The notes under the pieces were generated by a model. The model did no database searches. It saw only the letters and a program-made list of their open reading frames with translations, and was not told the origin of the DNA. From the NCBI GenBank assembly GCA_903855995.1, contig CAIOAN010000013.1:204875-268874 (forward strand): a stretch of DNA of 64,000 bases, written 5' to 3'. Every line of letters begins with the position of its first letter. Position 1 is the stretch's first letter. Made by a program: the position numbers and the translations under genes. This document shows, piece by piece, positions 52,231-57,871 of the stretch. Source of the DNA: an uncultured Opitutia bacterium (GTDB lineage Bacteria; Verrucomicrobiota; Verrucomicrobiia; Opitutales; UBA953).

Positions 52231-53241
52231 ATGCCAAAAATTCCCCGCCAAGGCATTCTTGCCGCCGGCAATTTCATCGTCGACTACGTCAAGGTCATCG
52301 ATGGCTACCCAGTCCAGGACATGCTCGCGAGCATCCTGAGCGAATCGCGCTCCAACGGCGGCGGCCCGTATAACGTCCTTAAGGACCTCGCGGCGATGAA
52401 GGTCGAGTTTCCTCTCTCCGCCTGCGGACTCGTCGGCGACGACACCAACGGCCAGTGGATCAAGCGCGACTGCCAGAACCACCGCATCGACGTCGGCATG
52501 CTGCACCTCAGCAAGGACCACCCGACCTCCTACACCGACGCGATGACCGTGCAGTCCACCGGCCGCCGCACCTTCTTCCATTGCCGGGGCGCCAACGCGC
52601 ACTTCGACCTCAAGCATTGCTCCTTCAGCAAGACCAACGCCCGCATCCTGCACCTCGGCTACCTCATGCTGCTGGATCGCATGGACACCTTCGAAAACGG
52701 CCAGACCATCGCCGCCAAGTTGCTCTTCAACGCCCGCTCCGCCGGCCTCGAGACCTCGGTTGACATGTGCAGCGCCTCGCACCCGCAGTTCCGCGAGATC
52801 GCGCTCAGCGCCCTGCCCCTCACCGATCACCTCGTCATCAACGAGATCGAAGCCGGCCTGAGCCTCGGCGAAATCATCGACCCCAAGAACGCTGGCTGGC
52901 TCCTTCGTTCCGCCGAGCAACTGCTCTCCCTCGGCGTGAAGAAGACCGTCACCATCCACACCGAGCATGGCGCTGTCTGCGCCACCGCCGAAGGCCTCCG
53001 CCTCAAGCAAGCTTCGCTCAAAATTCCGACTGGTTACAGCAAGGGCGCGACCGGCGCAGGCGATGCGTTCGCCGCCGGCATGCTTTACGGCCTCCACGAA
53101 GGCCTCGAAGTCCAGGAACGCCTCAAGCTCGCCGTCTGCTGCGCCGCCGCCTGCCTCGCCGATCCCACGCCCTCCAAAGGCCTGCGCCCGGTGAAAGACT
53201 GCCTCGCCCTGGCCGAGCAGTTCGGCTTCGGGGAGTTTTGA
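52231..53241 (+). CDS. PfkB family carbohydrate kinase
   Basis: ATG at 52231; GILAAGNFIVDYVKVIDGYP; SNGGGPYNVLKDLA; GYSKGATGAGDAFAAGMLYG. Confidence 0.9.
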   Translation: MPKIPRQGILAAGNFIVDYVKVIDGYPVQDMLASILSESRSNGGGPYNVLKDLAAMKVEFPLSACGLVGDDTNGQWIKRDCQNHRIDVGMLHLSKDHPTSYTDAMTVQSTGRRTFFHCRGANAHFDLKHCSFSKTNARILHLGYLMLLDRMDTFENGQTIAAKLLFNARSAGLETSVDMCSASHPQFREIALSALPLTDHLVINEIEAGLSLGEIIDPKNAGWLLRSAEQLLSLGVKKTVTIHTEHGAVCATAEGLRLKQASLKIPTGYSKGATGAGDAFAAGMLYGLHEGLEVQERLKLAVCCAAACLADPTPSKGLRPVKDCLALAEQFGFGEF

Positions 53242-53246
53242 GGTAG

Positions 53247-53658
53247 GGACAGCACCACGTGCTGTCCTAGGTGCAAAAGTGGATGCAAGTTTCAGGTGGC
53301 GGGTGGCAGCCCCGGGTGGCGGGTGGCGGGAAAGCATTTCAGGTCTCAGGTCTCGGCCGTCAGGTCCCGAGTTCAGGTGTTCAGCACCGGGATTAGGTTC
53401 GGGGCCTGCACCCGTACCCGTACCCGAACCCGACAACCCGCACCTGATACCCGATGGCCGAGTCCTGGGACCCGAGATGATTTGTCTGCCTCGGGTAGGG
53501 TTGAGCGCCCTCGCTCAACCGCGGCTGACCAAGGGTGGTCAGGCCTACCTTGTTTTGCTTCGCAGCCGTTCACCCTGCCAGCAGATCCCCACGCGACGCA
53601 TCGCGTCGCGTTAAAAGACATCATTTCGGCTCAAAAAGATATCGCATAACGTTTCCTT
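53247..53658. repeat. Long intergenic direct repeat, copy 1 (flanks the beta-helix gene on its 5' side)
   Basis: Ordered modules shared with 56404-56788: GGACAGCAC palindrome, GGTGGCGG tract, CAGGTCTC tract, ACCCGT tract, TTGAGCG/GCTGACC palindromes, TTGTTTTGCTTCGCAGCCGTTCACCCTGCCAGCAGATCCCC, swapped stem, paired AAAAGAYAYC. Confidence 0.92.
53613..53643. promoter_or_regulatory. Two direct half-sites AAAAGACATC / AAAAGATATC, 21-bp period
   Basis: 53613-53622 and 53634-53643, upstream of the ATG at 53700; matches the arrangement at 56743-56773. Confidence 0.5.
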
Positions 53659-53699
53659 GGAACAAGGTAGGGGCCAAGAGTGACCCTATCTTCTTAAAC

Positions 53700-56396
53700 A
53701 TGCGTCCACTTGTCATCGCCTTCCTCGGCACCTTCTCACTGGGAGCGGCCGACCATTACGTCAGCATCCAGGGTAACGACGCCTGGTCCGGCCTGCTCGC
53801 CGAACCGAATGCAGCGCACAGCGACGGCCCCTTCCGCACCTTACCCAAGGCCCGGGCGACCGCGCGCGCCGAGCTCACGGCGGGTGCCAAGGAAAGCACG
53901 ATCCTGCTCCGCGCAGGCGTCCACGAAATCACCACCACGCTCAAACTCGATGCCGGAGACTCTGGCCTGACCATCGCCGCGTTCCCGGGAGAACACCCGA
54001 CCATCATCGGCGGCAGCGAGATCAAGGACTTCAAGCCCTACCAAGGGAAGATCCTGCAGGCCGACGTGGGCGCACAGGGATTCAAGGGCACCTATTTCCG
54101 TCAGCTGATCTTCAATGGCCGCCGCCAGCACCTCGCCCGTTATCCAAACTTCGACGCCAAAAATCCTTACACCGGCGGCTGGGCTTACGTCGACGGCACC
54201 TACATCCCGATGTACAAGGATGACCCGACCGACAGTAAGCGCAGCTTCAAGCTCCGTCCCAAGGATCGTCGCACCTGGGCGCATCCCGACGAAGTCGAGA
54301 CGTTCATCTTCCCGCGTTACAACTGGTGGAACAACATCGTCCCCGTGGCCTCAGCCGACAGAGATACCGGCGAGGTCAAACTCACCAAGGATTGTTCCTA
54401 CCCCATTCGTCCGCTCGACCGATATTACTTCCAGAACTCCCTCGAGGAGCTCGATGCCCCGGGCGAATGGTATCTAGATAAGCGCTCGTGGATGCTGTAT
54501 TTCTGGCCAGAAGAACCTCTGGACGGCCGTCCCGTTTTCGCCCCGAAGGTTCGCACGATCATCGACGTCTTTGCGGCCAAACACGTCACCGTGCGCGGGA
54601 TCACTTTCGAATGCGCCGAAGGCAACGCTGTCAGTTTTGGTAAATGCGAGGACTGCCTCTTCAAGGGCAATGTCGTCCGCAACGTCGGCGATTACAGCGG
54701 CTCCGGCGTGAATGTCGGCGGCGGCACGGGCAACGGCGTCGTCGGCAACGACATCAGCCATATTGGCTCCAACGGCGTCAACCTTAACGGCGGTGACCGC
54801 CTGAAACTAACCCCCTGCGGCAATTATGCCGATAACAACTACATCCACCATATCGGTGAATCCTACAAACAAGGCGTCGGCATCAGCTTCTCTGGCGTGG
54901 GCATCCGGGTGTCCCATAACCTCATCCACGACGGCCCCCGCATGGGCATCATGTTCTCCGGCGGCAACAACAGCGTCATCGAATACAACGAGGTGCGGCA
55001 CATGAACCTCGAGACTTCCGATACCGGCGCGATCTACACCGGCGGGCGCGACTGGATTTCCTCCCGTGGAGCAGTCATCCGCTATAACTACTTCCACGAC
55101 ATGATCGGCTTCGGCCAGGACGGCCATGGCCAGTGGGAAAGCCCAACCTTCGCCTGGGGCGTCTACCTCGATGACAACACCGGCGGCATCGACGTGATCG
55201 GCAATCTCATCATCCGCTGCTCCCGCGCCGGCATCCACCTCCATAACGGCCGCGACAACGTCATCGAAAACAACGTCTTTGCCGACAACGGCAGCGCCCA
55301 GCTCGAATACAGCGGCTGGACCAAAGATCACAGGTACTGGAAAAGCTTCGAGCAGGACATGATCAAGACCTACGAGAAGTTCATCATCGAACCGGTCTGG
55401 CAGAAGATGCGCCACATGGACCTGCATCCGGCGAAGGCCATTCTTGAGGACGACACCATCATGGCGGGCAACGTCGCCGCTCATAACATCTTCTCGGCCG
55501 CAGGCGAAAAATCCAAGATTTACAACGTCAACCGCGTCAACTTCGCGCACAACTCCTGGACAAGCAACCTCGTCTGGCATGCCGGCCAACCCGTGCTCAC
55601 CGGCCGTCAGGACGCAGGCAAATCCATCGGCGAAAATCTGGTCGCCAATCCGGGCTTCGAAGAAGGCCTCGACGGCAAGAACCCCAAAGCATGGGGTTGG
55701 CAGATCAAGCCCACCGGCGCGAAGACCGAGCTCGTGACCGACGCCGTCAGCGGCCAGAGCGCCCTACGAATCGACGCCGCACCGCCCCAAGTGAACAAGA
55801 CCCAGAAGCTGTGGCTTAACTTTGTCAGCACCCCGATGACGAACCTGCACCCCGGCAAGACCTACCGACTCAGCGCCAAGGTCAAAGCCAGCCAGCCTGG
55901 CATGAAAATCAATGTCATGCTCCAATCCTACATCGACAAGATCTACTACTGGAACAGCGCCAAAGGAACCTTCACGATTGGGGATAAAGGAGCTGGGTGG
56001 CAGGAAGTGTCGTCGATCTTCACCCTGCCCGCTCCCGGCGAGAAGAGCTGGCATGAACAAATGAAAGCCTTCAAGGTGCGGATCGATGTCAGCCAGGAAA
56101 CTGGCAGCGTGTTCGTCGATGACGTCGCCCTGTTCGAGGTTGAGAAAATCGACGAATGGCAATCCTGGCAGGCTCTTGGTGCGGACCGGGATTCCGCCGT
56201 CGGCGATCCTCTCTTCGTCGATGCCGCGCACGACGACTACCGCCTGCGCCCTGAATCCCCCGCCTTCAAACTTGGCTTCAAATCCTTGCCGCTCGACCAG
56301 ATGGGGCCCTACCCAAGCAAGGACCGGGCTTCGTGGCCCATCATCCAAGCCGAAGGTGCCCGCGAGCATCCGCTCGTCGTGCAGCCGATGAAGTGA
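53700..56396 (+). CDS. Secreted right-handed beta-helix protein (possible polysaccharide lyase/glycosidase) with CBM4/9-like domain
   Basis: ATG at 53700 begins MRPLVIAFLGTFSLGAADHYVS; HYVSIQGNDAWSG, beta-helix repeats (NGVNLNGGDR, IEYNEVRHMNLETSDTGAIYTGG); NLVANPGFEEGLDG...GKTYRLSAKVKAS CBM-like. Confidence 0.83.
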   Translation: MRPLVIAFLGTFSLGAADHYVSIQGNDAWSGLLAEPNAAHSDGPFRTLPKARATARAELTAGAKESTILLRAGVHEITTTLKLDAGDSGLTIAAFPGEHPTIIGGSEIKDFKPYQGKILQADVGAQGFKGTYFRQLIFNGRRQHLARYPNFDAKNPYTGGWAYVDGTYIPMYKDDPTDSKRSFKLRPKDRRTWAHPDEVETFIFPRYNWWNNIVPVASADRDTGEVKLTKDCSYPIRPLDRYYFQNSLEELDAPGEWYLDKRSWMLYFWPEEPLDGRPVFAPKVRTIIDVFAAKHVTVRGITFECAEGNAVSFGKCEDCLFKGNVVRNVGDYSGSGVNVGGGTGNGVVGNDISHIGSNGVNLNGGDRLKLTPCGNYADNNYIHHIGESYKQGVGISFSGVGIRVSHNLIHDGPRMGIMFSGGNNSVIEYNEVRHMNLETSDTGAIYTGGRDWISSRGAVIRYNYFHDMIGFGQDGHGQWESPTFAWGVYLDDNTGGIDVIGNLIIRCSRAGIHLHNGRDNVIENNVFADNGSAQLEYSGWTKDHRYWKSFEQDMIKTYEKFIIEPVWQKMRHMDLHPAKAILEDDTIMAGNVAAHNIFSAAGEKSKIYNVNRVNFAHNSWTSNLVWHAGQPVLTGRQDAGKSIGENLVANPGFEEGLDGKNPKAWGWQIKPTGAKTELVTDAVSGQSALRIDAAPPQVNKTQKLWLNFVSTPMTNLHPGKTYRLSAKVKASQPGMKINVMLQSYIDKIYYWNSAKGTFTIGDKGAGWQEVSSIFTLPAPGEKSWHEQMKAFKVRIDVSQETGSVFVDDVALFEVEKIDEWQSWQALGADRDSAVGDPLFVDAAHDDYRLRPESPAFKLGFKSLPLDQMGPYPSKDRASWPIIQAEGAREHPLVVQPMK

Positions 56397-56403
56397 AGGG
56401 CCA

Positions 56404-56788
56404 GGACAGCACCACGTGCTGTCTTAAGCGCATTCATCCTCAGGTGGCGGGTGGCAGCCCCGGGTGGCGGGGATGCATTCTCAGGTCTCGGGTCTCGGCC
56501 ATCAGGTCCCGGGTTCAGGTGTTCGGCACCAGGTTCAGGTTCGGGGCCTGCACCCGTACCCGAACCCGACAACCCGTACCTGATGGCCGAGACCTGGGAC
56601 CCGAGATGATTTGTCTGCCTCGGGTAGGGTTGAGCGCCCTCGCTCAACCGCGGCTGACCAAGGGTGGTCAGCCTTACCTTGTTTTGCTTCGCAGCCGTTC
56701 ACCCTGCCAGCAGATCCCCATGGCGATGCCAAACATCGCCATAAAAGACACCATTCGAGCGTAAAAAGACACCCGATTGGGTTTCCTT
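56404..56788. repeat. Long intergenic direct repeat, copy 2 (flanks the beta-helix gene on its 3' side)
   Basis: Same ordered modules as 53247-53658. Confidence 0.92.
56743..56773. promoter_or_regulatory. Two direct half-sites AAAAGACACC / AAAAGACACC, 21-bp period
   Basis: 56743-56752 and 56764-56773, upstream of the ATG at 56837. Confidence 0.55.
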
Positions 56789-56836: not shown

Positions 56837-57871
56837 ATGAGCACCAAGAAATATAACGTCGGCATCATCGGCTACGGTTGGGCCGCTACGGCCCACATCG
56901 ATGCCATCAACGCGAGCAGCCAGGCGCAAGTCACAGCGATCTACTCCTCCCGCCCGCTCGACTCCGCCACGCTCAGCGCCAAGCACGGCGGCAAGATCAA
57001 GGCCTACGACACGGTCGAAGCCCTGCTCGCCGACCCGGAGATTCATGTGGTCGATATCACGAGCTACCCGAGCCAACACTGCGCCCAAGCCGTCGCCGCC
57101 GCGAAAGCGAAGAAGCATATCATCCTCGAGAAACCGATGGCGAACTCGATGCCTGAGGTCATCCAGATTTTCGAAGCCGCCGAAAAGAACGGCGTGAAGG
57201 GCTGCGTCTGCTTCGAGTGCCGCTTCTCCAGCCAGATGGAAGCCACTAAGGCCGTCATCGACCAAGGCCTCATCGGCGACATCCACTACGGCGAAGTCGA
57301 CTACTACCACGGCATCGGCCCGTGGTATGGCCAGTACCGCTGGAACATCGGCAAGAAGGACGGCGGCAGCGCCCTCCTCACCGCCGGCTGCCACGCGCTC
57401 GACGCGCTCCTGATGTGCATGCCGGGCGAAGTCGACTCGGTCACGAGCTTCAGCACGAAGTCGAAGAGCGAGTACTTCACCCCGTACGAATACGACACCT
57501 CCGCAGTCACGATTCTGAAGTTCAAGAACGGCGCCGTCGGCAAATGCGCCGCGGTCGTCGACTGCCTCCAGCCCTACTACTTCCACACCCACCTCGTGGG
57601 CAGCCATGGCAGCGTACTCGATAACAAGTTCCACTCCGCCAAACTGAAGACCAACAAGTCCCAGTGGAGCGGCCTCTCGATGAAGATGCTCGATTCCGGC
57701 GACGTCAGCGACCACCCCTACCAAGCCCAATTCCAGGCCTTCTTCGACGCGCTCGACAAAGGCCAGGACATGCCGCTCACAAGCTTCCGCGACGCCCTCC
57801 GCACGTTCAAGGTGATCTTCGCCGCCGACCAGAGTGCCGCGACCGGCGGCCAGCCGGTCAAAGTCGCCTGA
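56837..57871 (+). CDS. Gfo/Idh/MocA family oxidoreductase
   Basis: ATG at 56837; YNVGIIGYGWAATAHIDAINAS; KKHIILEKPMANS. Confidence 0.9.
   Translation: MSTKKYNVGIIGYGWAATAHIDAINASSQAQVTAIYSSRPLDSATLSAKHGGKIKAYDTVEALLADPEIHVVDITSYPSQHCAQAVAAAKAKKHIILEKPMANSMPEVIQIFEAAEKNGVKGCVCFECRFSSQMEATKAVIDQGLIGDIHYGEVDYYHGIGPWYGQYRWNIGKKDGGSALLTAGCHALDALLMCMPGEVDSVTSFSTKSKSEYFTPYEYDTSAVTILKFKNGAVGKCAAVVDCLQPYYFHTHLVGSHGSVLDNKFHSAKLKTNKSQWSGLSMKMLDSGDVSDHPYQAQFQAFFDALDKGQDMPLTSFRDALRTFKVIFAADQSAATGGQPVKVA

Follow-up and report, generated by a model that had tools for sequence, protein, structure and literature searches.

Within one freshwater genus of Opitutae, a dispersed intergenic repeat ending in CCCC is associated with perfectly paired hairpins, the distal arm of which is usually the end of the neighbouring gene; at three genes the inverted copy that completes the stem is absent in most repeat-free orthologues, and both arms change in concert. 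The best explanation of the whole, with a probability of about 0.5, is that a locus-specific hairpin stands at the CCCC end of the repeat and that its near arm is made by template switching and later re-matched by further switching or by compensatory change. The original prediction was partly supported. A hairpin kept while its sequence changes was found at the site where it had been proposed and in dozens of other slots, orthologous sites included. The further idea of one fixed two-sided slot receiving new palindromes did not hold, since the left border is the dispersed repeat and the distal arm and the right border belong to the neighbour.

Duplicated block and palindromes at two promoters

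The analysed stretch of DNA, hereafter the window, is 64,000 nucleotides long. Two perfect palindromes with 9-bp arms and unlike sequences had been noted on either side of a beta-helix protein gene, in the same slot between common flanks; both palindromes could be read directly, and the flanks are shared further than had been described. In copy 1, TTCACCCTGCCAGCAGATCCCC (53569-53590) is followed by ACGCGACGC (53591-53599), ATC, GCGTCGCGT (53603-53611), T, and AAAAGACATCATT (53613-53625). In copy 2, the same left flank (56698-56719) is followed by ATGGCGATG (56720-56728), CCAAA, CATCGCCAT (56734-56742), and AAAAGACACCATT (56743-56755). The left flank has 2 exact occurrences in the window against 0 expected. 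The features of the locus are as follows:

53448-53591, plus strand: copy 1 of the duplicated upstream block, last 144 nt, 97% identical to 56577-56720; GTAG-tagged REP-like hairpins from 53494
53556-53590, plus strand: copy 1 of the dispersed repeat, TGCTTCGCAGCCGTTCACCCTGCCAGCAGATCCCC; 14 copies in its own genome (core with ≤3 mismatches)
53591-53611, no strand assigned: hairpin 1, ACGCGACGC-ATC-GCGTCGCGT; an equal stem occurs at the Gfo/Idh promoter in several relatives
53613-53643, plus strand: direct repeats AAAAGACATC / AAAAAGATATC with a spacing of 21 bp, 5' of the beta-helix gene, read from the sequence
53700-56396, plus strand: beta-helix protein gene (name from the original prediction); the ORF spans 53535-56396, and 53700 is the first ATG 3' of the hairpin
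56577-56720, plus strand: copy 2 of the duplicated upstream block, last 144 nt, 97% identical to copy 1
56685-56719, plus strand: copy 2 of the dispersed repeat, from direct reading and a search of the window
56720-56742, no strand assigned: hairpin 2, ATGGCGATG-CCAAA-CATCGCCAT; its distal arm and AAAAG are also present in G027
56743-56773, plus strand: direct repeats AAAAGACACC / AAAAAGACACC with a spacing of 21 bp, identical in 12 relatives at the Gfo/Idh locus
56837-57871, plus strand: Gfo/Idh/MocA-type gene (named by resemblance) with hairpin 2 in its promoter; the upstream regions of orthologues were compared in 19 other genomes

The duplicated intergenic block is about 330 nt long, and its similarity reaches leftward to about position 53250 in copy 1 and 56405 in copy 2. 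Identity between the copies falls off at the palindrome base. To the right of the palindromes, only the AAAAGAYAYC direct repeats, 21 bp apart, and one TTTCCTT are common to both. A search for plasmid copies of the block gave no match. The direct repeats upstream of the beta-helix gene are a possible, putative activator site; with their counterparts at 56743-56773 they precede two neighbouring genes and are possibly a candidate operator of the AraC/XylS type. The regions 53231-53561 and 56388-56690 are composites of GTAG-tagged REPs (GGACAGCAC-CAC-GTGCTGTCC; GTTGAGCG..CGCTCAAC) and GGTGGCGGG / CCCGTACCCG phrases, resembling other intergenic regions of the window.

Distribution of the repeat and of the adjoining hairpins

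The left flank, TGCTTCGCAG-CMG-TTCACCATGCCAGCAGWTCCCC, recurs between genes as a dispersed repeat with a CCCC end. Its 22-nt core, with up to 3 mismatches allowed, was found in 14 copies in the genome of the window and in 30 of 55 genomes of the genus, sampled as one genome per species, with a maximum of 40 copies per genome; the reversed-pattern control of the core gave zero copies. Scanning of the GTDB species genomes yielded 97 stretches, for which the listed titles were Opitutae, Opitutus, or Verrucomicrobia assemblies with one Akkermansia-labelled exception. One of these assemblies, Opitutae bacterium BS6, carries many copies on a small number of long contigs, and the same slots turn up in genomes of separate lakes; misassembly is therefore improbable as the origin of the pattern. 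In close repeat pairs, orthologues included, the CCCC ends point outward in 53 cases versus inward in 9, the inward pairs all being >780 bp apart. In a miniature transposon with terminal inverted repeats, such inverted copies would enclose a homogeneous element, but the DNA between close pairs is variable, from 71 to >600 bp.

Perfect stems of 7 bp or longer, no more than 12 nt from CCCC, accompany 52% of 171 distinct copies, compared to 0.4% in shuffled sequences and about 2% at random positions. The slots therefore do not mostly lack palindromes, as they might have done; most of them have one. In 66 of the 89 stems of at least 7 bp the stem starts 0-1 nt past CCCC. Perfect stems of at least 9 bp follow 25% of the repeat copies versus about 1% of random positions in the same contigs, REPs included. 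The 171-copy set contained 70 distinct stems, counting those of at least 6 bp, and the strong hairpins adjacent to C runs in the examined DNA were mostly singletons (58 distinct among 83), unlike GTAG-REPs. Nor are the stems common mobile palindromes that share a border: the copy-2 palindrome occurs only once in the genome, and its other matches at up to 3 mismatches carry 2-3 of them. Locus-specific hairpins also follow a related C-rich phrase, GTGTCACCTTGCCCACGTGTCCCC.

Other repetitive elements were observed in the same genomes. The intergenic DNA of L103, L146, L150, and other loci contains arrays of degenerate 7-9 nt phrases (CCAACCGCTAACC, TACTCGATACTCC, GTCAACTTGCCAGC, TTTGCACCTTTGCAC), which at orthologous places are swapped for different phrases up to the stop codon. 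A second repeat has constant flanks on both sides of a variable hairpin, TTGCAC-[GGAGC-ttc-GCTCC, GCGGC-tcc-GCCGC, GGCGC-ttc-GCGCC ...]-TTGCAC, and a stem of at least 5 bp was found in 27 of 50 contexts of such sites.

Neighbouring gene ends as the source of the distal arm

Hairpin rates were 64% at gene 3' ends with the repeat, 13.8% at those without it, and 2.1% in coding interiors; the difference between 64% and 13.8% rejects gene-end hairpins that are independent of the repeat. About one third of the repeat-bearing gene ends lack a stem of that kind, at least 7 bp long. Among repeat copies facing a gene start, which include both copies of the window, a hairpin was present in 38 and missing in 77.

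Of 74 hairpins that face a convergent gene, 70 have its stop codon within the stem or loop or ≤10 nt farther on, as judged by simple ORF calls: it falls in the stem or at the edge of the loop in 30 cases, within the loop in 15, immediately past the stem in 26 (≤10 nt away in 25), and elsewhere in 3. These positions indicate that the distal arm is usually the gene's own end, and the near (proximal, CCCC-side) arm is its reverse-complement copy. The DUF3472-like gene (named by resemblance), with the final codons ACG AAG TAA, ends in its own sense with ACGAAGTAAGC-gaa-GCTTACTTCGT-GGGGG. The TonB-receptor-like gene, also named by resemblance, ends with ACGAGGCGCTTC-tga-GAAGCGCCTCGT-GGGGG, where the loop is the stop codon. 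At L242 of G067, two convergent gene-end hairpins lie between a DUF3472-like and a TonB-receptor-like gene with only GGGGGAAGTTCCCCC between them, an arrangement that looks like two inverted repeats trimmed by deletion to nothing but their ends.

Orthologues with and without the inverted copy

Eleven close orthologues of the DUF3472-like gene have the inverted copy of ...ACGAAGTAAGC before a G run, 8 of them perfect and 3 imperfect or shifted. Nine distant orthologues whose coding end is similar lack both the inverted copy and the repeat. In G065 and G070 both are absent, and the sequence looks like a deletion relative to G000. At the ACT-domain gene, the inverted copy accompanies the G run: in G000, G065, and G070 it follows an 11-nt loop and precedes GGGGG and different sequence, and in G067 and G035, with proteins 97-98% identical, another phrase is present and the hairpin is absent. 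The TonB-receptor-like gene repeats the pattern of the DUF3472-like gene, its end mostly lacking the inverted copy in repeat-free orthologues. Thus, at the three genes, repeat-free orthologues mostly keep the gene end without the inverted copy. In 17 gene families with both states, the counts of hairpin to no hairpin were 46:9 with the repeat versus 20:46 without it (Fisher p = 3e-9, relatedness uncorrected); several of the repeat-free hairpins in this count retain the G run and resemble repeats that have been truncated. At the same gene end, a repeat-free orthologue sometimes carries a different hairpin, such as a GTAG-REP or a T-tract terminator (groups S50 and S77).

Concerted change of both arms

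Across 193 ordered comparisons between orthologues, both partners of a pair had changed at 73 positions versus 9.8 expected if the arms were independent, and 68 of the 73 were complementary; the comparisons are not independent, and the counts are therefore given without a p-value. One-sided changes numbered 108 (56 + 52) in the same comparisons, and since they are common, re-matching must be slow or incomplete. At the ACT-domain gene, the near arm matches variants of alanine and arginine codons and TAA, TAG, and TGA stops across species. G061 has an uncorrected state there, in which the near arm still fits the coding end of G013 and G004. The coding end of the TonB-receptor-like gene varies (ACGAGGCGCTTC, ACGCGTCGCTTC, ACGCGCAAGTTC), and the near arm varies with it. 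Inspection of the ortholog groups by eye revealed no loop inversion, which marks some template switches, and no single-step event was seen between near-identical strains.

Compensatory base changes are usually taken to prove that an RNA stem is functional. The dozens of independent hairpins seen here provide a natural system in which to ask whether covariation is produced by selection or by a copying mutation, and many of them are anchored in codons and can be traced through synonymous and stop-codon changes.

Origin and maintenance of the hairpins

The simplest origin for exact inverted copies 8-14 nt long, adjoining their source, is a single template-switching step. The distal arm belongs to the neighbour, being mostly a gene 3' end with its stop codon where the repeat faces a convergent gene and, at the window's locus, a promoter. 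In the proposed mechanism, short-range template switching (foldback copying) would write the near arm in the DNA itself, perhaps more readily where the C/G run of the repeat meets the neighbour. When the gene-side arm mutates, the near arm could later be re-matched via further template switching or compensatory change, and the hairpins may be retained as 3'-end structures. Template switching is an established mutation that both creates and repairs such stems in one event (PMC8794818). A more active role of the repeat, in which its CCCC/GGGG end would direct foldback synthesis so that adjoining DNA is copied inverted and the matched hairpin is refreshed as the gene evolves, appears unlikely.

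Selection alone is possible, though on balance doubtful, as the explanation of the whole. Under it, the gene needs a 3'-end hairpin for termination or exonuclease protection, the arms drift with compensation, and the repeat is passive or a rut-like downstream element. The location of hairpins at stop codons, the covariation of the arms, and the presence of other hairpins (GTAG-REP, T-tract terminator) at some repeat-free orthologous gene ends are consistent with this. However, many close orthologues are hairpin-free, such as those of the ACT gene in G067 and G035; the stems extend over stop codons and coding sequence and would be disrupted there by ribosomes; and point mutation would hardly yield exact inverted copies, 10-14 nt long, of conserved coding ends. 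An RNA wobble signature was sought and rejected, one-sided changes giving 26 A-C versus 19 G-T without a clear strand preference. No gene-sense G-U pairs occurred among about 1050 stem pairs, and this near-absence of wobble pairs leans toward copying, though the stem search penalised mismatches. Selection on RNA could account equally well for the maintenance of the hairpins. The continued matching of the arms is compatible both with repeated template switching and with selection for a hairpin at the 3' end.

The hairpins also suggest that, in this lineage, inverted copying next to a single repeat rebuilds gene 3' ends again and again. If true, such copying would account for the one-step origin of perfect locus-specific hairpins.

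Hairpins at the window's locus in relatives

The Gfo/Idh promoter of G061 and G016 has the repeat and the ACGCGACGC hairpin; in G061 the kinase is directly upstream of the Gfo/Idh gene, with no beta-helix gene in between. The same hairpin, with arms of about 13-16 bp, stands behind another phrase at this promoter in G002, G070, G034, G024, G011, and G068, and G067 has it with one mismatch, also behind another phrase. The distal side alone was found in G008, G015, G029, G025, and G001. Orthologues of the beta-helix gene were present in G027 and G004 only. In G027, the Gfo/Idh promoter carries GCGATGC-TCC-GCATCGC with CATCGCCATAAAAG, equal to the copy 2 distal arm, and the repeat is absent; a near-identical hairpin lies upstream of the beta-helix gene, both hairpins standing behind a CCCTATCCC-type phrase. 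In G004, the beta-helix gene immediately follows the kinase with neither repeat nor hairpin.

Since seven relatives have the promoter hairpin without the repeat and the copy 2 distal arm occurs in G027, each hairpin of G000 belongs to its own promoter, and this is the main reason why the two stems differ. The shared left block was duplicated, or converted and homogenised, up to the hairpin base. At this locus, then, a duplicated upstream block is set against two promoter hairpins, unlike since the promoters differ. The matching of the copy 2 near arm to a changed distal arm poses the same question as at the gene ends. Because a hairpin is present without the repeat at this locus, the repeat is not always the cause.

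Another reading is that the repeat was inserted, or its recombination tracts end, at pre-existing hairpins. The repeat-free hairpins of this locus with arms of 13-16 bp, the meeting of repeat and hairpin inside the outer part of the near arm, and the end of copy 1/copy 2 identity at the hairpin base agree with it, but at the three gene ends studied in depth repeat-free orthologues are mostly without a hairpin, and as a general account it is quite improbable. Exchange of dispersed mobile palindrome families sharing a border with the repeat is already largely refuted and hardly credible: although GTAG-tagged REPs abound in the genus (310 of 566 strong hairpins in the examined DNA, 42 stem types) and Opitutus terrae was reported to be highly enriched in them (PMC3733652), the GTAG foot is absent, C-run stems are mostly singletons, the copy-2 palindrome has a single copy in the genome, and Y1-transposase matches have no evident relation to the number of repeats.

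Comparison with known systems

GTAG- and CGTC-tagged REPs have a constant tag beside an intergenic palindrome and family-specific stems, are often located 3' of genes, and the GTAG can give a TAG stop (PMC3733652). The elements described here likewise have a constant part adjoining an intergenic palindrome with varying stems, but the constant part is about 35 nt long and ends with CCCC, the stems are locus-specific, and an arm is the end of the neighbour's gene. Assignment to these REPs was rejected on the basis of the CCCC foot without unpaired GTAG or CGTC, the 70 distinct stems, and the uniqueness of the copy-2 stem. The Y1 transposase (RAYT, Y1_Tnp) is matched in 34 of 55 genomes, with no evident relation to the number of repeats, and appears doubtful as the driver. 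One Y1-transposase (RAYT-like) gene, at G000:C10:43114-43323, has GTAG-REP-like matches on either side (C10:42865, C10:43508).

Like intrinsic (Rho-independent) terminators, the gene-end structures are GC-rich hairpins directly 3' of a gene, but a U tract is absent, GGGG follows the hairpin in the gene's sense, and the stop codon is often within the stem; a G run in this position was found after 68 of 76 hairpins with the repeat. A known RNA family was rejected, since no Rfam family matched within the window at the gathering score.

The hairpins also resemble template-switch hairpins (quasipalindrome correction), with which they share a perfect inverted copy a few nucleotides from its source and multi-base changes in both arms. 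The perfect inverted copy near its source was found here, and relatives having the source without the inverted copy were found at the three genes; at the window's locus, by contrast, some relatives have the hairpin without the repeat. Unlike template-switch hairpins, the present ones are linked to the CCCC end of one dispersed repeat and to gene 3' ends, lineage-wide and at dozens of loci. Nothing on such repeats in Opitutae was found among the papers searched, and a description of one dispersed repeat bordered by mirror copies of the gene ends that it meets was not found in a search covering few of the subscription journals. Intergenic repeats, template switching, and gene-end hairpins are each known separately.
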